Below, in pieces: positions 3,215-32,700 of a stretch of 64,000 nucleotides of DNA (the stretch's first letter is position 1; each line of letters opens with the position of its first letter). Under the pieces are notes generated by a model that was not told where the DNA came from, made no database searches, and worked only from the letters and a program-made list of their open reading frames with translations. Origin of the DNA: an uncultured Pseudomonadota bacterium (lineage in GTDB: Bacteria > Myxococcota_A > UBA796 > GCA-2862545). The stretch is taken from positions 248,001 to 312,000 of the forward strand of contig CAJXTB010000002.1 in the NCBI GenBank assembly GCA_913061235.1. The letters run 5' to 3'. A program made the position numbers and the translations under genes.

Positions 3215-3807
3215 GAGGTCACCTCGGTTGCAGGAGTCAGAAGTCCGTGGCGGATTTCGCCCATTTCTCGGCGCACGGCCACTCCGAACTGCTTGCGTGC
3301 ATAGTGAAGCCGGCTGTACACGGTACCGACAGAGCAACCGAGAATTAGCGCGGTTTCTGGCGCGGTACGCTCTTCCAGGTCCATCAGAACGATGACCTCG
3401 CGGTGCTTGAGGGAGAGGCGATCGAGAGCAGAGATGACCTTGCGGCGGCGCCACATTGCGCCGACTTGTTCGTCGACGTCAGGGCCTGGATGCGGCGGCT
3501 CACGGACATCACCGAGACCGACCATGCGGCGTAGAGCGGCACGTCGGCGAGCATTGGCAACGACGCGCCGGGTGATGCCGTACAGCCAGCCTGTCAGTGC
3601 GCCGGCTTCCGGGCGGTATCGGTCGACGCGGGTCAACGCAACGGCGAAGACGTCGTGGGCGACATCCTCGGGGTCGATATTCGGGCCACCCAACCGCGTG
3701 GTCCAGTTCAAGACCTTTCGCGCATGGTCTCGGTAGAACTGGTCGAGGGTATTGCGGTCGCCACGTTTCAGGGCGTCGATGTCGATGTCGAGGTCAGAGG
3801 CAGCCAC
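3211..3807 (-). CDS. ECF-type RNA polymerase sigma factor
   Basis: The product has 198 residues from the preferred GTG at 3807, which has GGAG five bases upstream. A TTG at 3855 would add 16 residues but has a weak ribosome site. Region 2 includes DQFYRDHARKVLNW, IDPEDVAHDVFAVAL and TGWLYGITRRVVANARR. Region 4 includes the helix-turn-helix TAPETALILGCSVGTVYSRL. There is no sigma region 3, so it is an ECF sigma factor. It directs RNA polymerase to envelope-stress or surface-signal promoters and is probably held by the FecR-like protein encoded by the overlapping next gene. Confidence 0.9.
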   Translation of the reverse strand: MAASDLDIDIDALKRGDRNTLDQFYRDHARKVLNWTTRLGGPNIDPEDVAHDVFAVALTRVDRYRPEAGALTGWLYGITRRVVANARRRAALRRMVGLGDVREPPHPGPDVDEQVGAMWRRRKVISALDRLSLKHREVIVLMDLEERTAPETALILGCSVGTVYSRLHYARKQFGVAVRREMGEIRHGLLTPATEVTS

Positions 3808-3861
3808 GTTCTCTCCTGCACCGGACTCTTGTGCGGGTGTCGTGCTGTCCTTCAATCTTCG

Positions 3862-4833
3862 TCACAACAAAACGAGGACGTCGGCCATCAGTGCGTAGTC
3901 ATGGACCCAACGTTGGGCGCTGTCTTGGTTGCGCCGCCGGTAGCGAACGCGGTCTACGCCAGATGCGCGCAGGCGGACGCTGGGGGTCACCCAGAGGTCT
4001 AGGCCTACACCGGCAACAGGTCCGATGTCGTACTGAACATCAGCGGGGTCAAGGATGACGATGGACTGGTCCTCGAACTGACTCGGTGTCAGCTTTCGTA
4101 GGACGCCGCGCCGAAGCTCCACGCCGCCGAGGAGAAGTGGGCCGCTCTGCCACTTGCGTGTTTTCGGTGCAGGCATGCCGAGCTCGCCCATGAGCGACAC
4201 GGTGAACACGTCCAAGTAGGTGTCGTAGCCCTCAAAGTTCTCGTCTGTGAAGACGCCGACGAGTTTGCGGTCAATGGACGACTCGCGCAGGTAGCTGCCC
4301 GCCGCGAAGAACACGTCCAGCTCAACAGCTACAGGGCCGCTGCGTAGTCCGGCGATGAGCCGGGGGCCGTCAAGTCCATACCCGTTGACGGGGGCAATGC
4401 GCATTCCGAGACCCGCGGTCAGACGAGGTGGAGGAAGCGTGATTAGCGGTGACTTGTCCGGCTCGGGTGGAGGGGACGTGGGCTCGAGTACCACGGCTGT
4501 CCGGACCTCTTGAGGCAGCTCGGGAATCCAGCCGCCGTCGGCAACGCGCAGGCTGCGCAGCCAGGTTCGCGCCAGCAGTACAGCGGTCTCGGTTCGGCCG
4601 TCCCACTCGCGCTCGTAGCGGTGGTCTCTCGCGTACAGCACGAGGTCGCCGGCCTCGAATGTGAGCCGGTCTCCCTCCGTTAAGACTTGGGTTGTGACCT
4701 GCATGTCGTGTGCGGACCACAAGCGGTCGAGGTCGGACTGCAGGGCGGTGGCGGTGTCTGTCTCGGGCACCACCCAGGGCAGCGCCCATGCGGTGTTGAC
4801 GGTCAGGACGAGTAGCAGACAGATTCGTGACAT
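3862..4833 (-). CDS. Secreted or outer-membrane hypothetical protein
   Basis: The ATG at 4833 begins a clear signal peptide (MSRICLLLVLTVNTAWA). An in-frame TTG at 4851 would put six extra residues before it and is less likely. About residues 20-110 form a small soluble domain. Then comes a proline-rich hinge (PTSPPPEPDKSPLITLPPPR) and a C-terminal half rich in alternating strands (LTAGLGMRIAPVNGYG, GPVAVELDVFFAAGSY, GPVAGVGLDLWVTP) that reads like a beta-barrel. No named family was recognised. It ends a few bases before the sigma-factor region and could be in the same transcription unit. Confidence 0.6.
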   Translation of the reverse strand: MSRICLLLVLTVNTAWALPWVVPETDTATALQSDLDRLWSAHDMQVTTQVLTEGDRLTFEAGDLVLYARDHRYEREWDGRTETAVLLARTWLRSLRVADGGWIPELPQEVRTAVVLEPTSPPPEPDKSPLITLPPPRLTAGLGMRIAPVNGYGLDGPRLIAGLRSGPVAVELDVFFAAGSYLRESSIDRKLVGVFTDENFEGYDTYLDVFTVSLMGELGMPAPKTRKWQSGPLLLGGVELRRGVLRKLTPSQFEDQSIVILDPADVQYDIGPVAGVGLDLWVTPSVRLRASGVDRVRYRRRNQDSAQRWVHDYALMADVLVLL

Positions 4834-4857
4834 TTCGCCAGGGTGCAGCAACGCCGT

Positions 4858-5874
4858 CTAGATGTCGAGGGCAGATTTCCCACACAAGGTCAGTGCTTCG
4901 TCTACAGCAACACGGATATCACGTGGCCAAGCCTCTCTTTGGTGTGTGCGAAGTAAATGCATCAACACGCCTGCGGCCTCCGCCGGATGGGTGTGTTGTA
5001 GATCCGCATCGGTTGGCGTGACGCCAAGCTCGGACATCAGAATACGCGATGGTGTCGCTATGCGGAGTGCGCCGAGGTCGAGGACTGCCAAGGATAGACG
5101 GTCGGCGGCGAAGGTGTCGTTCAGCCCCTTGTTCGCGTGCAACAGCACGGCGACTCGCTCGCTACGCGTGCCGGTCACCCACTCAATGTGATGCGTCTGT
5201 CCGTCGAACCGCATGTCGCGCCCGTCCAAAACGACGAAGGTGCTCTCATCTCCGTGGTAGTGGCCGAGAAGGTCCAGCTCTGGTGCGTGACCCGTCCACA
5301 ATCGGGCGGCTGACCGTTCCCAAACGTTCGCCGGAATGTGGTTGCGCATCCAGTCGATAGCGTCTGCCGAGGTGTCGACGCGTTGGCGTGCCAAGCGGTA
5401 CCCAGGAGCCAATGCGCGCAAGCTGCCGTAGTCGCCGCCAACCACGTGGTCCATAAGGTCTGCGTCAACCTCTCCAGGCAGGCTCGGCGTGTTGGCCGGA
5501 ACGCGGAACCACACAGCCGCCAAGACTTCTGTGTCGCTCGTCAGCACCACACGCATGTCGGCATATTCATCGGACTGGCGGCGATGAGCAGTGGCTGTAG
5601 TGACTCGGCTTGGGTCGACGTCGATGGTCAGCTTGCGCTTGCGGTCGCGGATGATCAGGTGCTCGCCCAGCTCGACCACAACGGGCCGGTCGCCACGCAC
5701 CCAGAACAAGAACTCATAGACGAAGAATGAGCCGGCGAGGGGAAGGGGCATCCACCACCACAAACCGAGAAACGCGAGAATGGCGGAAGCTGTTCCGCCC
5801 ACCACGACTTGGGCTACCCGAACCATGGGTCGAAGTACGGCATCGAGGACTTGCGGTGTTCCGTGCATTTTCAT
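4858..5874 (-). CDS. Uncharacterised membrane protein
   Basis: The ATG at 5874 overlaps the stop of the upstream methyltransferase-like gene (ATGA). The 338-residue protein begins with a short soluble stretch and then two closely spaced membrane helices (about residues 17-60, including VVVGGTASAILAFLGLWWW and PLAGSFFVYEFLFWV). A long soluble region follows, with no recognised motif. A possible pleckstrin-like or immunity-type membrane anchor architecture (two helices plus beta-rich cytosolic domain) is only a resemblance. It is the last gene of a three-gene minus-strand operon with a pseudo-rhomboid and a homocysteine methyltransferase-like protein. Confidence 0.65.
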   Translation of the reverse strand: MKMHGTPQVLDAVLRPMVRVAQVVVGGTASAILAFLGLWWWMPLPLAGSFFVYEFLFWVRGDRPVVVELGEHLIIRDRKRKLTIDVDPSRVTTATAHRRQSDEYADMRVVLTSDTEVLAAVWFRVPANTPSLPGEVDADLMDHVVGGDYGSLRALAPGYRLARQRVDTSADAIDWMRNHIPANVWERSAARLWTGHAPELDLLGHYHGDESTFVVLDGRDMRFDGQTHHIEWVTGTRSERVAVLLHANKGLNDTFAADRLSLAVLDLGALRIATPSRILMSELGVTPTDADLQHTHPAEAAGVLMHLLRTHQREAWPRDIRVAVDEALTLCGKSALDI

Positions 5875-6578
5875 GGCGCGGCCCATAGCGCGGCAAGGTC
5901 GCTCGGTGAAACGCCACAGCAACCGCCAAGCCACTCGCAGCGCTCGCGAAGCGGTTCTGTACGACGCGCCCAGTCGTCAACATGACTCGGTTTGGCCCAG
6001 AACGGAGCATCACCTGCGGAGTCGCAGGCGGTCAGGACTTGCTCCGGTGTAGCGCAGTTAGCGCCGACCCCGCGCGCGCCTGCGGTCATCAGCGCGTCGT
6101 AAACACCAACGAGGGGAGTTGAGCATCCGAGCACCCGACCGTCACTCGGAACAAGACTGACCACGACAGCCATGCTGGGCTCTGCACGTCGTACCGCGTT
6201 GAGTGCGTCAATGGCCTGCTGTGCTGTGGTGAACGTCTCTAAGATGAGGTCCACAACACCGTTGTTGTGCAGTTCCGCCGCGAGTGCACCATACCCATCG
6301 GGGTGTGGCGCGACGGGACCGCTGCATCCCCAGACGGGCACTCCACAGGTTCGTGCGATGGCCACGGCTTGCGCGACAACGTGAGCGACGGTTTCGGGAG
6401 TTGCCGCTGCCATAAACGTGGCGGTCAACACAGCTTGAGCACCGGCGTCCACGAACTCTTGGTGTGCAGCCCGGACCCTCTGCGGATGTTCACGCAGCCA
6501 AGGTTCTACCGGTGAGAATGCGGGCAGGCCGAGTTCTTGAAGACGTGTCGCCAGACCGCCGTCGAGACGCGTTGTCAA
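5871..6578 (-). CDS. Homocysteine S-methyltransferase-like protein
   Basis: The 235-residue product has the family's N-terminal LDGGLATRLQ, a TIM-barrel pattern (VDAGAQAVLTATF, VVDLILETFTTAQQAI), and the three zinc-ligand cysteines in GANC (C175) and GGCCG (C220, C221). These enzymes move a methyl group from S-methylmethionine, betaine or another donor to homocysteine. It is shorter than the usual 290-330 residues, mainly in the loops of the barrel. The start is a TTG that overlaps the TGA of the upstream pseudo-rhomboid (ATTGA), so translation is probably coupled. The family assignment is good; the donor is unknown. Confidence 0.8.
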   Translation of the reverse strand: MTTRLDGGLATRLQELGLPAFSPVEPWLREHPQRVRAAHQEFVDAGAQAVLTATFMAAATPETVAHVVAQAVAIARTCGVPVWGCSGPVAPHPDGYGALAAELHNNGVVDLILETFTTAQQAIDALNAVRRAEPSMAVVVSLVPSDGRVLGCSTPLVGVYDALMTAGARGVGANCATPEQVLTACDSAGDAPFWAKPSHVDDWARRTEPLRERCEWLGGCCGVSPSDLAALWAAP

Positions 6579-7261
6579 TGGACAACGTCGTCTTTACCGC
6601 CTTGATAGACGGTGAATCGCGGCTTTTCGGGCTGGCGCTTTGGGCTGGCAATGCGAATCCGAGCACGGGGCCCCAGCAAGAACCACCAGGCAATGGCTGC
6701 TAGCCACGTGAAGAACCCAACGGCGGCCATCATGTGCATGGTGCCCAGCAGCAGGACACCGGAGAGGATTCCAGTTCCCCAGGCGACGTACTTTGCCGGC
6801 ACCGGAATCACAAAAAGCAGGGAAATCGTAGCGTCTGGGCTGTGCAGGCCGAACATCACCAGCATGACCGCCAACAGCGGACTGAGTCCGTAGGCCGCCC
6901 CGCCGAGCAGGCCTGTCAGGTCAAAGGCGAAGGCGAGAGCTGAACCCACTACTGCCGAAAATAAAACTGCGCGGACGATTATTGCGTCAGGGAAGGAGCG
7001 GCGCAGTGCAGGCAGAATGAAGTAAATGGCCGCCGCACTCGTCAGCAGGCCCATGATGTCTCGCTGAAGGAACCAGCGAGTGAGCACCTGCCATGGCTGA
7101 AATCCGTTTTCCAGAGACAGCCACAGAAGCGGGACGAGGTTCACGCCCAGAATGCTTCCGACGACGACTTCGACAACGTACAGTCCCACCAAGCCGAATA
7201 GCAGGCGTTTGGTGAGGGGCGAGGGCGGGGGAAAGTACAGTCCACCGGCAACTTGGCTCAT
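6575..7261 (-). CDS. Rhomboid-like membrane protein lacking the catalytic serine
   Basis: The 228-residue protein has five to six membrane helices. Rhomboid landmarks are visible: the PWQVLTRWFLQRD segment (compare PWQLxTxxFLH), LLFVIPVPAKYVA, and a late histidine (TMHMM, about residue 176). In the helix that normally carries GASG, the sequence reads GGAAYGLSP (about 120-128), so the nucleophilic serine position is alanine. It is therefore probably an inactive rhomboid that binds or guides membrane proteins, as in iRhoms and derlins; this is inferred. The ATG at 7261 faces the FHA gene across a 102-base divergent gap. Its stop overlaps the next gene. Confidence 0.7.
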   Translation of the reverse strand: MSQVAGGLYFPPPSPLTKRLLFGLVGLYVVEVVVGSILGVNLVPLLWLSLENGFQPWQVLTRWFLQRDIMGLLTSAAAIYFILPALRRSFPDAIIVRAVLFSAVVGSALAFAFDLTGLLGGAAYGLSPLLAVMLVMFGLHSPDATISLLFVIPVPAKYVAWGTGILSGVLLLGTMHMMAAVGFFTWLAAIAWWFLLGPRARIRIASPKRQPEKPRFTVYQGGKDDVVH

Positions 7262-7312
7262 GGCGTCTCCAACAACGTTTCGCTAACCCAAGCGCCGTCT
7301 GGTGGTGGGCGC

Positions 7313-7340
7313 TTCCCTCCTGCATCGGCTTCGGTATGAT
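7313..7340 (+). promoter_or_regulatory. Possible promoter of the FHA gene
   Basis: TATGAT at 7335-7340 matches five of six bases of a -10 box and lies 24 bases before the GTG start. A weak -35 candidate, TTCCCT, lies 16 bases upstream at 7313-7318. The gap also must hold the promoter of the divergent pseudo-rhomboid operon, which I could not identify. Confidence 0.3.
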
Positions 7341-7363
7341 GCGCTGCGGAGACTGACTGGCGC

Positions 7364-9001
7364 GTGGCGTACATTTACGAATTGGTGGTGACAGAGGGTC
7401 CTCTCATGGGACGGTCCTTTCGCGTGGAGACACACGCCACTCTTAAGATTGGCCGGACGTGTCGGGACATTCCCTTGTTCCAAGACGAGCGCGCAAGCCT
7501 GGAACATGCCGAGCTTTCGTGGACCGCCAACGGTTTTTGGGTGCGCGATTTGGCGAGCGAGGGCGGGACCTTTGTCGATGGTCTGCCGATTCCGACTGAG
7601 GGAAAGTCGCTCCACATCGACTCATCCCTTCGAGTTGGCCAGACCGTCTTTCGGCTCGAAGAGCGTCGGTCAGTTCCCGCGTGGGCTGGCTGGTCCGCTG
7701 CCGTCGGTATCCCTCTGAGTGCGGTGATCATTGGGCTGATTGTCTTAGCTGTACGGGGCGTTTCTTACGAGCCAGAGATCCGCTTTGCCGCTCCCATTGC
7801 ACAGGGAGAGCTCACCAGTGATCAGGTTGCGGTTCCGCTGTCATTCATGCGGCGATTTGGCGTGGACCACCGGGACTTGCGCAGTCGGCGGGTGACGGAC
7901 TTTGATGCGGACGGGCACAGTGAGCTGTGGTTTCCACTGGCGGACTCCGAGGTCGTTGTGGAGCTGCACGGGGACGATTGGACGGTGGTTGCCGAGCTGC
8001 CTGTTGATTGCTCCGACCGGCCCGGTCTTGTTTTTCCCGACCAAGAGTGCGGTGGGCGACGCTTTCGGATGGTTGAGGGCACCTACGTTGCCGTGCAACT
8101 CGCAAGTCCGGTGGCTTGGATTGCACCCCTGGTCGATCTAGAGCCGGACGATGATCCTCTCCTTGAGCGACAGCCGGGCGAGCCACGCCCCTTCCGAGTT
8201 TCCGTAGCCCAGATGCCACGACTGACCGGGTTCTTGCGTGAACGCGGCATTGATGAGCCTATCCACTATCTGGCCTGCGAAGGCGTCTTCCCAGGTGTTC
8301 GCGCGCAGGTGCTGACGCAGGCGGGGCAGATCCATCGGCTGGAGCCTGGTTGTTTGGGGGCGATGAGCACGTCTGGACCAGGCTTGAACCAGTCCATGTC
8401 ACGCGAAGACCCGGTTGCCATTGCGTTTACCGCAAACGGGTTTGATGCACTGCGCCGTGATGCGCTGACCTACCGCTTGGGTGACCCTGATGGGTTGTTT
8501 CGCCAGCAAGGAGACGACCCTCGATTGGACGCCTTCTTGGGAGTGCCCGACAGCCGGGCGATTCGGGTGTCCTTTGACTCGGACCCTGTCGCGCAGGTGG
8601 CTGTCGCAGATGAGGCGCGGCTCACCGGCCTTCGCGAGTGGGTTCACACCGAGGACAGTCCTGGGGCGGCTCCGATGTTGATGGCGTCCATTGACTCCCA
8701 GGGAACGGCCCGATTTGAGCTACCGGGTTGCGCTGTGGTTGAGGTTCAAACCGAAGCGTGGCATTGCCTGCTGCGTCGATGGTGCCGACCGACGACCGGC
8801 TTCCTCACCGCACAAGAAGTCGGCTGCACCGATCAACCTAGACCTCTGATGGGCGCGCCATACTTGGGCGGGGTGCATGTCAGTGGAGTCGATGGACTGG
8901 AGATGTGGACAGACATCGATGTCTACGGATTTGCCGGTCAGATAGACGTCAATCGGGTGCGTGTAGGCTTCCGAGATACCAGTGGTGTGCCAGCACCTTG
9001 A
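7364..9001 (+). CDS. FHA-domain membrane protein with large external region
   Basis: The 545-residue product starts at GTG. Residues about 28-98 are a forkhead-associated domain: KIGR, SLEHAEL, WVRDLASEGGTFVDG. The usual Ser-Arg-x-His is SLEH, so one phosphate-contact arginine is missing. A single membrane helix spans about 107-131. The remaining 410 residues would be outside the cytoplasm and include a DFDADGHSELWF segment (about 179-190), like the calcium-binding loop of FG-GAP beta-propellers, plus several Cys pairs. FHA domains bind phosphothreonine, so this looks like a protein linking kinase signalling to an external sensor or adhesin. No kinase lies in the window. Confidence 0.75.
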   Translation: MAYIYELVVTEGPLMGRSFRVETHATLKIGRTCRDIPLFQDERASLEHAELSWTANGFWVRDLASEGGTFVDGLPIPTEGKSLHIDSSLRVGQTVFRLEERRSVPAWAGWSAAVGIPLSAVIIGLIVLAVRGVSYEPEIRFAAPIAQGELTSDQVAVPLSFMRRFGVDHRDLRSRRVTDFDADGHSELWFPLADSEVVVELHGDDWTVVAELPVDCSDRPGLVFPDQECGGRRFRMVEGTYVAVQLASPVAWIAPLVDLEPDDDPLLERQPGEPRPFRVSVAQMPRLTGFLRERGIDEPIHYLACEGVFPGVRAQVLTQAGQIHRLEPGCLGAMSTSGPGLNQSMSREDPVAIAFTANGFDALRRDALTYRLGDPDGLFRQQGDDPRLDAFLGVPDSRAIRVSFDSDPVAQVAVADEARLTGLREWVHTEDSPGAAPMLMASIDSQGTARFELPGCAVVEVQTEAWHCLLRRWCRPTTGFLTAQEVGCTDQPRPLMGAPYLGGVHVSGVDGLEMWTDIDVYGFAGQIDVNRVRVGFRDTSGVPAP

Positions 9002-27683: not shown

Positions 27684-28867
27684 GTAGCTGCCTGTTTTCC
27701 AACGTCCGCCTCGGAGAGGACACCGTTGATGTGCGTGTCAGCAACGGCGTCATTGCGAAGATTGCCTCGGCCAAGACGTTGGCGGCTCTACCCGGCGAAG
27801 ACCACATTCAGGATGGCTGGCTGACCCCGCCACTGGCCGAGCCTCACTGCCACCTAGACGCAGCATTGCTGGCCGACCGTGCGCCTAACCACAGTGGAAC
27901 GCTTGTTGAGGGCATCGCAAACTGGGCTGCAATCGCGCCTTCTCTCACCGTTCAGGACGTTCGCGACCGCGCACTGACGACTGCGAAGATGTACAAGTCT
28001 TGGGGCTGCCTGCGCATTCGAAGCCATGTCGACACCGAGTGTCCGGTGGCGGTGGAAGCATTGGTCTCGCTCAAGCCGGACCTGGCCGAGCTGGGTATGG
28101 ACCTGCAGCTCGTCGCCTTTCCCCAGCGCGGGATTCTACGGGCTCCAGGCCGGCAAGACGCTTGGCGGGCTGCGATTGACGCTGGGTGTGATGTTGTGGG
28201 AGCGATTCCGCACTACGAGCGTACACATGACGAAGGGAATGCGTCGCTCAAGCTGGCGTTTGACCTGGCAGAGGCCAGAGGACTCATGGTCGATGTTCAC
28301 TGTGATGAGACCGACGACCCCTCGAGTCGCCACCTCGAGCGCATGTGTGCTGAGACGATTGACCGCGCCATGGCGGGTCGTGTCGTAGCCGGGCACTGCA
28401 CCGCGATGCACAGCTACCCCAATCCCCACGCAGCGAAGGTGGTCGCGCTCGTTGTTGAATCGGGTGTTCAGATTGTCACCAACCCGCTCGACAACAGCGT
28501 CCTGCAGGGCCGCTACGACAACGGCCCCGTCCGTCGAGGCCACACCCGGGTCAAGGCGCTGTGGGCTGCCGGTGCCAGCGTTGGCATTGGACACGATTCC
28601 GTCCAAGACCCTTGGTATCCACTAGGTACCGCGAATCTCGTGGACGCGGCCTACGTTCTCGTGCACTACGCGCAGTGCTCAGGTCTGGCAGAGATGGAGC
28701 GCGTGTTCCGGACATTGTGGGATGAAAATCACCGGCCATTTGGCGGTGCCCCCGTGTTGGCCGAAGGCAAGGTCGCGACGATGTGCTGGTGGCCGCAGTC
28801 AGATGCGCGAATGCTGTTGGTCCATCGCCCCCGTCCGACCATCTACATTGCTGGAGAAGTCACTTAG
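27680..28867 (+). CDS. codA: Cytosine deaminase (CodA-like amidohydrolase)
   Basis: The 395-residue enzyme matches E. coli CodA along its length: metal ligands H56 and H58 (EPHCHLD), catalytic region H207 to E210 (DVHCDE), H239 (AGHCTAMHSY) and D306 (GHDSVQDPWYPLGTANL), and the substrate-side Q149 (AFPQRG). It converts cytosine to uracil plus ammonia. The residue equivalent to E. coli D314, next to the metal-binding aspartate, is S307. Substitutions there are known to alter substrate preference, so cytosine specificity should not be assumed. The ATGA overlap couples it to the permease. Confidence 0.93.
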   Translation: MSSCLFSNVRLGEDTVDVRVSNGVIAKIASAKTLAALPGEDHIQDGWLTPPLAEPHCHLDAALLADRAPNHSGTLVEGIANWAAIAPSLTVQDVRDRALTTAKMYKSWGCLRIRSHVDTECPVAVEALVSLKPDLAELGMDLQLVAFPQRGILRAPGRQDAWRAAIDAGCDVVGAIPHYERTHDEGNASLKLAFDLAEARGLMVDVHCDETDDPSSRHLERMCAETIDRAMAGRVVAGHCTAMHSYPNPHAAKVVALVVESGVQIVTNPLDNSVLQGRYDNGPVRRGHTRVKALWAAGASVGIGHDSVQDPWYPLGTANLVDAAYVLVHYAQCSGLAEMERVFRTLWDENHRPFGGAPVLAEGKVATMCWWPQSDARMLLVHRPRPTIYIAGEVT

Positions 28868-28947
28868 TAGGTAGTGTCTGCCGGCCCGTGTCTTCGTGGT
28901 CGCACGTTGTGACGTAAACAGGTACTCTGCGGCACTCTGGGGAGTAC

Positions 28948-31900
28948 ATGTCACGTTTGCTAGCGGCCCTGTTTGTGGTCTTGATGGTTGGGTGCCCGCT
29001 TCCGCCAGAGATCTGCGGAAACAACATCGATGACAACGGCAACGGGCTGTTCGACTGCGAAGATGAAGGCTGCGACTGCGCTGAAGTCTGTGACGATGAG
29101 AGCGACAATGACGGCGACGGTCGCACGGATTGTGAAGACCCCGATTGCTTTGGTGAAGAGTGCCTAGAAGTCTGCGGAGACGGCCAAGACAACGACGGTG
29201 ACGCGCTCATTGACTGCAGTGACAACAACTGTTTTGGCCCGAACTGTGCCGAAATCTGCGGTGATGGCATCGACAATGATGCGAACGGGGACCTTGACTG
29301 CAACGACATCAGCTGCGCCTCCGAGTGCTCCGAAGTCTGCAACAACGGCGTTGATGACGACAATGATGGCGGCGTGGACTGTGAAGACCCCGACTGCTTT
29401 GGCATCTGCAACGAGATCTGCGGAGATGGCCTCGACAACGACGCAGATAGCCTGACCGACTGCTTCGACCCCGACTGCTCCTCCGTCTGCGATGACATCG
29501 AGCTGTGCACCAACGGGCTGGATGACGACGGCGACAACCTCGTTGACTGTGACGATGACGACTGCGAGTGCGGACCGCGCGAGAACTGCACGAATGGCAT
29601 CGATGATGACGCTGACGGTCGCGTAGACTGTGACGACGGCGAGTGCGTTGCTGTGTGCACCGCGGAGATCTGTCATGACGGCATCGACAACGACGGCGAC
29701 CTGTTTGTCGACTGTGCCGATCCAGAGTGCTTTGACGCCGACTGCGATGAGATTTGTGATGACCGCTTCGACAACGACCTCGACCTACGCGCAGACTGCA
29801 GCGACCCCGATTGTTTCGCTACTACCTGCACTGAGATCTGCTTTGACCGCGGCGATAACGACCTCGATGGCCTTCTTGACTGCCGAGACCCCGACTGCGC
29901 TGGCAATCCCGCCTGTGTCGAGACGGCGTGTGGAGACGGGGGAGATGACGACCAAGATGGTCTGATCGACTGCTTTGATCCGGACTGCCGGGTAGACGCG
30001 CTGTGTCGCGAGCAAGACTGCCAAGATGGCGAAGACAGCGACCAAGACGGACTGACGGACTGTGCTGACCCTGACTGCGAAGCCACCGACCAGTGCGTCG
30101 AACTCAACTGCCAAGATGGCGAAGACAGCGACCAGGACGGACTTACAGACTGCCGCGACGACGACTGTATCGATTTGGCCGTGTGTGTTGAGACCCTGTG
30201 CGACGATGACGTCGACAACAACGACAACGACCTTGTTGACTGTGCCGACCCCGACTGTGAAGGCGCTCCCGCCTGCGTGGAGTCTGACTGTAGCGACGAG
30301 ACGGACAACGACGGTGACTTGGCTGTCGACTGCGACGACGATGACTGTGCCGTGGACCCCGCATGCGTCGAGATCGATTGCCTAGACGGTGAAGACAGTG
30401 ATGATGACGGCCTCATCGACTGCGACGACCCAGACTGTCAGACCTCCACTGACTGCGGCGAGCAAGACTGCAATGACGGCATCGACGACGACGAAGACGG
30501 CGCGACCGACTGCGATGATGATGACTGTGCGACCGGCCGAGACTGTGTTGAGTTTGCCTGCGCAACCGGCGGAGACAGCGATGGCGACGGCCTGTTCGGA
30601 TGTACAGATGACGACTGCCTGAGCGAGCCCGTGTGCTTCGAACAAGACTGCGAAGACGGCCTCAACTCTGACTCCGCCTTCGACGGACTGACCGACTGCG
30701 ACGACCCGGACTGCGATGACGACCCGGTCTGTCGCGAGCAAGACTGCTCGGATGGACTGAACTCAGATGCAGACCAAGACGACCTGACCGACTGCGAAGA
30801 CCCCGACTGCGCCAATGACCCCGCCTGCCGGGACCTGGTGTGCGACGACGGCATCGATAGTGACAACGACGGCCTCATCGACTGCGTAGACCCCGACTGC
30901 TCCTTCATCAACAACCAGACGGAAGCGTGCTTCGAGCGCATCTGCCAGGACGGTCAAGACGGCGACCGTGACGGATTAGTGGACTGTGCGGACCCCGACT
31001 GTGACCGGTCCATCTTGTGCGTTGAGCAGGTGTGCTTTGACGGCGGCGACTCCGACCAAGACGGCCTGGTGGACTGCGCGGACCCCGACTGTGATGAGGC
31101 TCCGAACTGTATCGAGAGCGACTGCACAGACGGTATAGACCAAGACAACAACGGCCTGATCGACTGCGAGGACCCCGACTGTGACGCGGACATCGCGTGT
31201 ATCGAAGTCGACTGTGCAGATGACACAGACAACGACGACAACGGCCTGACGGACTGCGAAGACCCCGACTGCTCTGACACCTCGGCGTGCCTTGAAATCG
31301 ACTGTACAGATGGCGTAGATGACGACAACAGCGGCTTGACCGACTGTATGGACCCCGACTGCGCAGGGGACCCCGCCTGTGTCGAGACCGTGTGCGATGA
31401 CGGCGTAGATGACGACGGCAACGGCGAGACCGACTGCGCGGACCCCGACTGTGCAGCCGACCCTGCCTGCATTGAGGCCGACTGCGATGACAGTCTGGAC
31501 AATGACGGCGACCTTGCCACGGACTGCGCGGACTCAGACTGCGCGACCGATGCCGCATGCATCGAGACGAGCTGCGCAGACGGCCAAGACAATGACGGCG
31601 ACTTCTTCATCGACTGCAGGGACAGCGACTGTCAGTCAGATGTCGCGTGCCAGTCCGAGGTCTGTGACAACAACTTTGATGACGACGCCGATACCCTCGT
31701 TGACTGCGACGACCCCGGTTGCTTCGGCGCCATTGGCCTGTGCGAGACCGAGCTGAACTGCACGGACAGCGAAGACAACGACGGCGACGGGTTCATCGAC
31801 TGCCTCGACATCGATGACTGTGGCGCCGACCCCGCCTGTGCGGTCGAGATCTGCGACAGCACCACGGACGATGACGGCGACACGCTCGTCGACTGCGACG

Positions 31901-32700
31901 ACCCGGACTGCTTCGGCGCCATTGGCCTGTGCGAGGCCGAACTCAACTGTACGGACGGCGGAGACAACGACGACGACGGTCTATTGGACTGCGAAGATGC
32001 GGATTGCTCGGCGGATCCGAGCTGTGTTGAAGTCTGTGACAACTCCACCGACGACGACGGCGACACCCTCGTGGACTGCGACGACGACGATTGTTGGGGC
32101 CCAGCCTGTTCCCTCACAGGCACGCGTGCCTGGGTCACCGGCGGCAGTGTGCAGATCGATGAGCTGGCAGCAGACACTGCCAATGTGTCCACATCGCTAC
32201 AAGGCCCGAGCTGCGACTCCAGCGACGCGATTACCCTCGGAACACCAGCACGACGCATGACTGCGCGCAGTGTCACCGGTCAGGTTCAGGTCAGCCGCTT
32301 GGTCTCGGGCAGCACCGTCACCGAGACCTGTTCGTGGGCTGCGACCGAGGTCAGCGGATTCGATATTGCCGGCACCGGTCAGGTGACCCTGAGCCGCCAA
32401 GGCTTCACGCTGAGCGAGCCCGAGCGCTGCCAGTTGGCAGGCAGCTCGTTCTTGCCGACCCTGCTGTCAGTCGCGCAGAGCGCAGCGAGATTGCCGGGTG
32501 GTGGAACCTCTACAGCAGGCAACTCAAGTTGGTACGGGGGCAACTTCCAGGCCTCGACAATGGGGACTGTGACGCTGTCGACGTCTGTTCAGGTCGACGA
32601 CAGCTGCACGGTTCTCCTGTTGGGCGCACCCGTCAACTCCACGCAGCGTAGCTACGACAACGTCGATGACATGGAGCCAGTGTTTGGGATTGCTCCCTAG
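28948..32700 (+). CDS. Giant lipoprotein with about 35 Asp/Cys repeats
   Basis: The 1250-residue product has a signal ending at MVGC (C16), so it is a lipoprotein. Residues 21-1055 hold about 35 tandem repeats of roughly 27-31 residues with the pattern C-x-D-G-x-D-N-D-x-D-G-L-x-D-C-x-D-P-D-C, then C and E at the join. Each repeat has EF-hand-like Asp spacing and three or four cysteines, which suggests calcium binding and disulfide-linked loops, like thrombospondin type 3 or MopE-like motifs. The repeats drift in order along the gene. The last 195 residues (1056-1250) are different, Thr/Ser-rich and beta-like, and may be the surface domain. The gene stands alone, with GGGGAG before its ATG. 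Confidence 0.85.
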   Translation: MSRLLAALFVVLMVGCPLPPEICGNNIDDNGNGLFDCEDEGCDCAEVCDDESDNDGDGRTDCEDPDCFGEECLEVCGDGQDNDGDALIDCSDNNCFGPNCAEICGDGIDNDANGDLDCNDISCASECSEVCNNGVDDDNDGGVDCEDPDCFGICNEICGDGLDNDADSLTDCFDPDCSSVCDDIELCTNGLDDDGDNLVDCDDDDCECGPRENCTNGIDDDADGRVDCDDGECVAVCTAEICHDGIDNDGDLFVDCADPECFDADCDEICDDRFDNDLDLRADCSDPDCFATTCTEICFDRGDNDLDGLLDCRDPDCAGNPACVETACGDGGDDDQDGLIDCFDPDCRVDALCREQDCQDGEDSDQDGLTDCADPDCEATDQCVELNCQDGEDSDQDGLTDCRDDDCIDLAVCVETLCDDDVDNNDNDLVDCADPDCEGAPACVESDCSDETDNDGDLAVDCDDDDCAVDPACVEIDCLDGEDSDDDGLIDCDDPDCQTSTDCGEQDCNDGIDDDEDGATDCDDDDCATGRDCVEFACATGGDSDGDGLFGCTDDDCLSEPVCFEQDCEDGLNSDSAFDGLTDCDDPDCDDDPVCREQDCSDGLNSDADQDDLTDCEDPDCANDPACRDLVCDDGIDSDNDGLIDCVDPDCSFINNQTEACFERICQDGQDGDRDGLVDCADPDCDRSILCVEQVCFDGGDSDQDGLVDCADPDCDEAPNCIESDCTDGIDQDNNGLIDCEDPDCDADIACIEVDCADDTDNDDNGLTDCEDPDCSDTSACLEIDCTDGVDDDNSGLTDCMDPDCAGDPACVETVCDDGVDDDGNGETDCADPDCAADPACIEADCDDSLDNDGDLATDCADSDCATDAACIETSCADGQDNDGDFFIDCRDSDCQSDVACQSEVCDNNFDDDADTLVDCDDPGCFGAIGLCETELNCTDSEDNDGDGFIDCLDIDDCGADPACAVEICDSTTDDDGDTLVDCDDPDCFGAIGLCEAELNCTDGGDNDDDGLLDCEDADCSADPSCVEVCDNSTDDDGDTLVDCDDDDCWGPACSLTGTRAWVTGGSVQIDELAADTANVSTSLQGPSCDSSDAITLGTPARRMTARSVTGQVQVSRLVSGSTVTETCSWAATEVSGFDIAGTGQVTLSRQGFTLSEPERCQLAGSSFLPTLLSVAQSAARLPGGGTSTAGNSSWYGGNFQASTMGTVTLSTSVQVDDSCTVLLLGAPVNSTQRSYDNVDDMEPVFGIAP
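29008..32112 (+). repeat. About 35 tandem coding repeats of roughly 81-93 bp
   Basis: The bases encoding residues 21-1055 of the lipoprotein are a tandem array of units averaging about 88 bp, each with the codon pattern for GAYAAYGAY-GGY and TGC-GAY-GAY. Units differ by point changes and a few indels (for example a three-base insert in the unit near 30650-30740). The array is protein-coding and in frame throughout, which argues against a CRISPR or a non-coding satellite. Confidence 0.85.

Follow-up and report, generated by a model that had tools for sequence, protein, structure and literature searches.

The window, the 64,000-nucleotide stretch of DNA analysed here, carries an open reading frame that encodes a lipoprotein-type start, a long array of acidic, cysteine-rich units and a separate C-terminal domain (Table 1). 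The N-terminus reads as a predicted lipoprotein-type signal, as the preliminary description had proposed; read by eye, MVGC at residues 13-16 of the translation resembles a lipobox, and similar hydrophobic starts ending in Cys occur in the paralogs L026, L028, L035, L037 and L042. The residue at position -3 of the motif is Met, which is not the commonest residue there. Upstream, on the same strand, lies a pair of genes for a cytosine/purine permease and an amidohydrolase, and downstream is a convergent gene for an enoyl-CoA hydratase; nothing in this neighbourhood points to the function of the array protein. A promoter scan at the gene found none, and terminator-like sites were no more frequent than expected by chance. 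Long antisense reading frames (up to 266 aa) are present on the minus strand opposite the array, at 28860-32276, and are most simply explained by the codon composition of the array.

Table 1. Features of the array gene, in positions of the window.
Feature	Position	Strand	Basis or remark
Open reading frame, 1250 aa	28948-32700	+	
Predicted signal peptide with lipobox (MSRLLAALFVVLMVGC; Cys at residue 16 as the predicted lipidation site)	28948-28995	+	Translation read by eye
Thirty-five acidic double-disulfide units in tandem, each with four Cys and 25-34 aa long (mode 30 aa)	29014-32109 (aa 23-1054)	+	NF033662, 35 stretches; unit table
Units 12-19, regular 30-aa form E-x2-C-x13-C-x4-C-x5-C	29917-30636	+	Unit table
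Units 24-27, segment modelled with AlphaFold2, mean pLDDT 86.9	31021-31380	+	
C-terminal domain ("tip"), 196 aa (residues 1055-1250), beta-rich according to a low-confidence model	32110-32697	+	Common to paralogs and a few other genomes

The preliminary description had placed about 35 tandem units at 29008-32112, with three or four Cys in each; exactly 35 were found, and every one of them (35/35) holds four Cys, never three, for a total of 140 in the array. The strict spacing C-x13-C-x4-C is kept in 32 of the 35 units. Also in agreement with that description is the strongly negative net charge, which amounts to -349 over 1032 residues (303 Asp, 63 Glu, 17 Arg and zero Lys); His occurs once. 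A short form of the unit, in which C4 lies two to five residues past C3 and the Glu usually two before C1, makes up units 1-10 and unit 35, units 11-30 are mostly of the 30-residue form, and units 31-35 are a mixture of both.

By profile match, the array is a long example of an already catalogued repeat family, NF033662 (acid_disulf_rpt, the acidic double-disulfide repeat of NCBIfam), which covers it in 35 stretches with an E-value of 1.6e-176 and 571.6 bits, the cut-off being 41 bits. The preliminary description had held that the unit belonged to no family it could name, a claim to be given up if a known repeat family covered the consensus, and NF033662 does so. It had also pointed to thrombospondin type 3 and MopE-type repeats, and proposed a comparison with both profiles; a Pfam search of the 1250-aa protein up to E 1 matched no family, these two included. 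The profile of the MopE-type Cu-binding repeat, PF11617, does match a second locus of the same genome, L045 (18 stretches, E 4.2e-142), which served as a positive control. The likeness to MopE lies in an Asp/Cys-rich unit of about 30 residues and in occurrence in the same genome, with 18 PF11617 stretches on L045 and zero on the array protein.

In L045 (G000:C49:3000-11966; frame 3756-7466), the 18 PF11617 repeats share a single polypeptide with one acidic double-disulfide unit. Moreover, 32 of 197 units from other genomes (L046-L083) have a Cys at +8 and so a DDDCDG-like motif, which we take to be a feature of the MopE repeat. Because of this Cys, the first halves of the two repeats may be related or intergrading.

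A phmmer search of the PDB with the whole protein returned teneurins as the best matches. A 30-column profile of 19 units, to which units 12-19 contributed as they did to the model alignment described below, retrieved teneurins only, with 7plp_A as the best match (E 2.3e-10, 30/30 positions aligned). As a control, a reversed array segment was searched against the PDB and gave zero matches; composition alone is therefore not the cause of the teneurin match. The matched structure, the C-rich domain of teneurin-4, was solved at 1.5 Å with three calcium ions, whose ligands are E835, D840, D843, N844, D845, D847, D851, D854 and D856 together with three backbone carbonyls; its disulfides are C838-C857, C852-C863 and C858-C869 (PMC9058538).

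We mapped the ligand columns onto the repeat by setting C1 of the unit equal to C838. Asp, Glu or Asn occupies these columns at a frequency of 0.91 in the array, against 0.21 at the other columns, and the corresponding values are 0.87 and 0.26 for 108 paralogous units of the same genome and 0.90 and 0.24 for 197 units from other genomes (permutation over positions, p ~1e-4). The complete ligand set is kept in 26 of 32 regular units, and a Glu stands at -3 or -2 in 34 of the 35 units. The calcium-type spacing of Asp residues that had been suggested for the array is thus borne out at the level of individual ligand positions. The Cys residues of two teneurin disulfides, C838-C857 and C852-C863, are present in every regular unit, and the disulfide potential claimed earlier is upheld, the four Cys of each unit being placed as these two 7plp disulfides. 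The Cys directly after C3, which in teneurin-4 belongs to the third disulfide (C858-C869), is absent in the regular units; identity with the full teneurin C-rich domain was therefore excluded, and we describe the unit as teneurin-like. This absence fits the "double-disulfide" name of the family.

Units 24-27 were modelled with AlphaFold2 without templates, on an alignment to which eight further stretches of four units were added. The resulting model (pLDDT in Table 1) has a pTM of 0.56, and the relative placement of the units, and hence the rod shape, is therefore uncertain. Foldseek placed 7plp as its top PDB match, at 0.4 Å over 24 columns (probability 0.91, E 0.068), and VIA-align superposed 42/42 residues of the model and 7plp at 2.6 Å with a Z of 4.2, a value that is weak by itself. 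These modest scores reflect the tiny size of the unit, an E of 0.068 being expected for a 30-residue match. The predicted fold of the unit agrees with the teneurin C-rich calcium module, and the structure and sequence searches give the same top protein.

Tandem Repeats Finder detected a repeat at the DNA level only at 31061-31599 (period 90, 71-73% matches), as the units share only about 63% nucleotide identity. Recent expansion of the array was considered and excluded; the nucleotide identity is 0.67 between adjacent units and 0.63 between distant ones (permutation p 0.056), and codons agree at only 60% of identical residues between units. The sole pair that looks duplicated is units 31-32 and 33-34. 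Since the identity between units stays near 0.63 almost regardless of how far apart they lie, the array is old, and we infer that selection on the Cys and ligand residues has kept it.

The distinct C-terminal tip of 195 residues noted in the preliminary description corresponds to a separate tail of 196 aa. The tail matched no Pfam or NCBIfam family, and its model (pLDDT 46.5) is beta-rich and too poor for a fold search. It is related to the tails of L026, L028, L029, L030 and L034 in the same genome (BLAST and leave-one-out profiles, E 1e-5 to 1e-15), which stand behind 22 (24 by regular expression), 14, 5, 14 and 2 units, respectively, as counted with the unit profile, compared with 35 in the array protein. 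Membership of L035 and L032 is borderline, and L040 and L041 were excluded with scores no better than those of shuffled sequences. A profile of six tails also found L061 (2 units, E 2.8e-8), from another metagenomic genome, and gave weaker matches to L064, L057 and L077 (2 units each); these four loci come from deltaproteobacterial or unclassified proteobacterial metagenomic genomes. No clear match to the tail was found in 37 other genomes of the order, two hits being marginal (E 0.003-0.006). The common tail thus follows spacers that differ greatly in length among these proteins, from 2 to 35 units.

The repeat itself is widespread. About 25 reading frames with acidic double-disulfide units were counted in the genome of the array protein, and the family was found in 38/38 searched genomes of the order and in 0/14 control genomes. 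Named records with the repeat include Myxococcota and other deltaproteobacterial MAGs, Saprospiraceae (among them Lewinella cohaerens), Nitrospira, Acidobacteria, Peregrinibacteria and several archaeal MAGs, with the reservation that MAG labels may be wrong, one match being labelled Klebsiella pneumoniae. The unit also occurs in other settings. The locus L037 (G000:C20:23000-35500) comprises three lipoprotein genes in a row (884-1238 aa), whose products have Thr/Asp-rich linkers past the lipobox, and acidic units are scattered between other domains without tandem arrangement. L067, L074 and L082 (Nitrospira, Lewinella) are large proteins in which one or two copies of the unit accompany peptidase domains (subtilase, reprolysin-like, M43).

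Because the sequence and the predicted fold of the unit match a teneurin calcium-binding domain, the array is probably a calcium-stiffened stalk of an ordinary kind and of unusual length. In the mechanism that we favour and consider fairly probable, the gene product would be an outer-membrane lipoprotein in which 35 independently folded modules of about 30 residues, each with the architecture of the initial three quarters of the teneurin C-rich domain, form a spacer stiffened by calcium and disulfides. In each unit, C1-C3 and C2-C4 disulfides would close a loop, and Asp, Asn and Glu side chains would hold approximately three calcium ions. Joined end to end by short linkers (three to five residues), the units would form an extended spacer that holds the beta-rich, lineage-specific C-terminal domain away from the membrane. 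The number of units, which varies between 2 and 35 in proteins that share this kind of tail, would set the length of the spacer.

The proposed exposure at the cell surface could be questioned, as the only signal seen is of the lipoprotein type and a surface-sorting tag was not identified; the same spacer might then face inward, into the periplasm. Nothing direct speaks against such an orientation, and we regard it as unlikely on the general argument that disulfide-rich calcium modules suit an oxidising, calcium-containing exterior. The very high Asp content, with about a hundred potential sites, would also suit an envelope store or buffer for Ca2+ or a transition metal, as proposed for MopE-type proteins, with the tail as an incidental part. 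This reading appears quite improbable: PF11617 finds no match, the ligands are arranged as in the teneurin calcium site, which uses oxygen only, the Cys occupy the positions of the 7plp disulfides and there is a single His. In addition, the presence of a conserved tail domain in proteins with anything from 2 to 35 units suggests display over storage. A flexible acidic or mineral-interacting coat without a fixed unit fold, which would contact calcium minerals, polysaccharide or surfaces through the bulk charge of the array, is very unlikely given the strict Cys and ligand spacing that persists despite the divergence of the units at the nucleotide level, and given the confident repeated fold in the prediction.

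The calcium- and disulfide-stiffened spacer is of interest beyond this gene. NF033662 is a named repeat with no assigned function, and no mention of it was found in the open-access literature searched. Its link to a calcium-bound structure at 1.5 Å gives every member a testable mechanism, in which each unit would bind about three Ca2+ and form two disulfides. This teneurin link is the useful part of the analysis, the array itself being a long member of a known family. Such proteins are numerous in the lineage, as the counts above indicate, and a large class of putative surface proteins is concerned.

The unit of the array protein does not differ from that of NF033662, whose model states no function; the array is a long example. 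For thrombospondin type 3 repeats, the earlier hint holds in part. Two of the three calcium ions in the teneurin-4 C-rich domain are coordinated as in these repeats, the site of the third being of the kind seen in LDL-receptor A modules (PMC9058538), whereas thrombospondin type 3 is absent from the Pfam and PDB sequence matches and the array has the Cys pattern C-x13-C-x4-C-x5-C.

The match to teneurin could reflect either common descent or convergence onto a short calcium loop. It is conceivable, if somewhat doubtful, that the teneurin C-rich module and the bacterial and archaeal repeat share ancestry, that teneurins obtained this module plus the YD-shell from a prokaryotic surface protein, and that bacteria repeat it many times over to make tunable, calcium-stiffened stalks. 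In none of five long proteins from other phyla was the repeat accompanied by teneurin-like YD/RHS domains. The likeness extends to all the calcium-ligand positions, to C838, C852, C857 and C863, to 30/30 profile positions and to the predicted superposition at 0.4 Å over 24 residues. In contrast, teneurin has one copy of the module, which has C858-C869 as an additional disulfide and is connected by a linker to a TTR domain, and the array protein has 35 copies, with two predicted disulfides each, within a putative lipoprotein.
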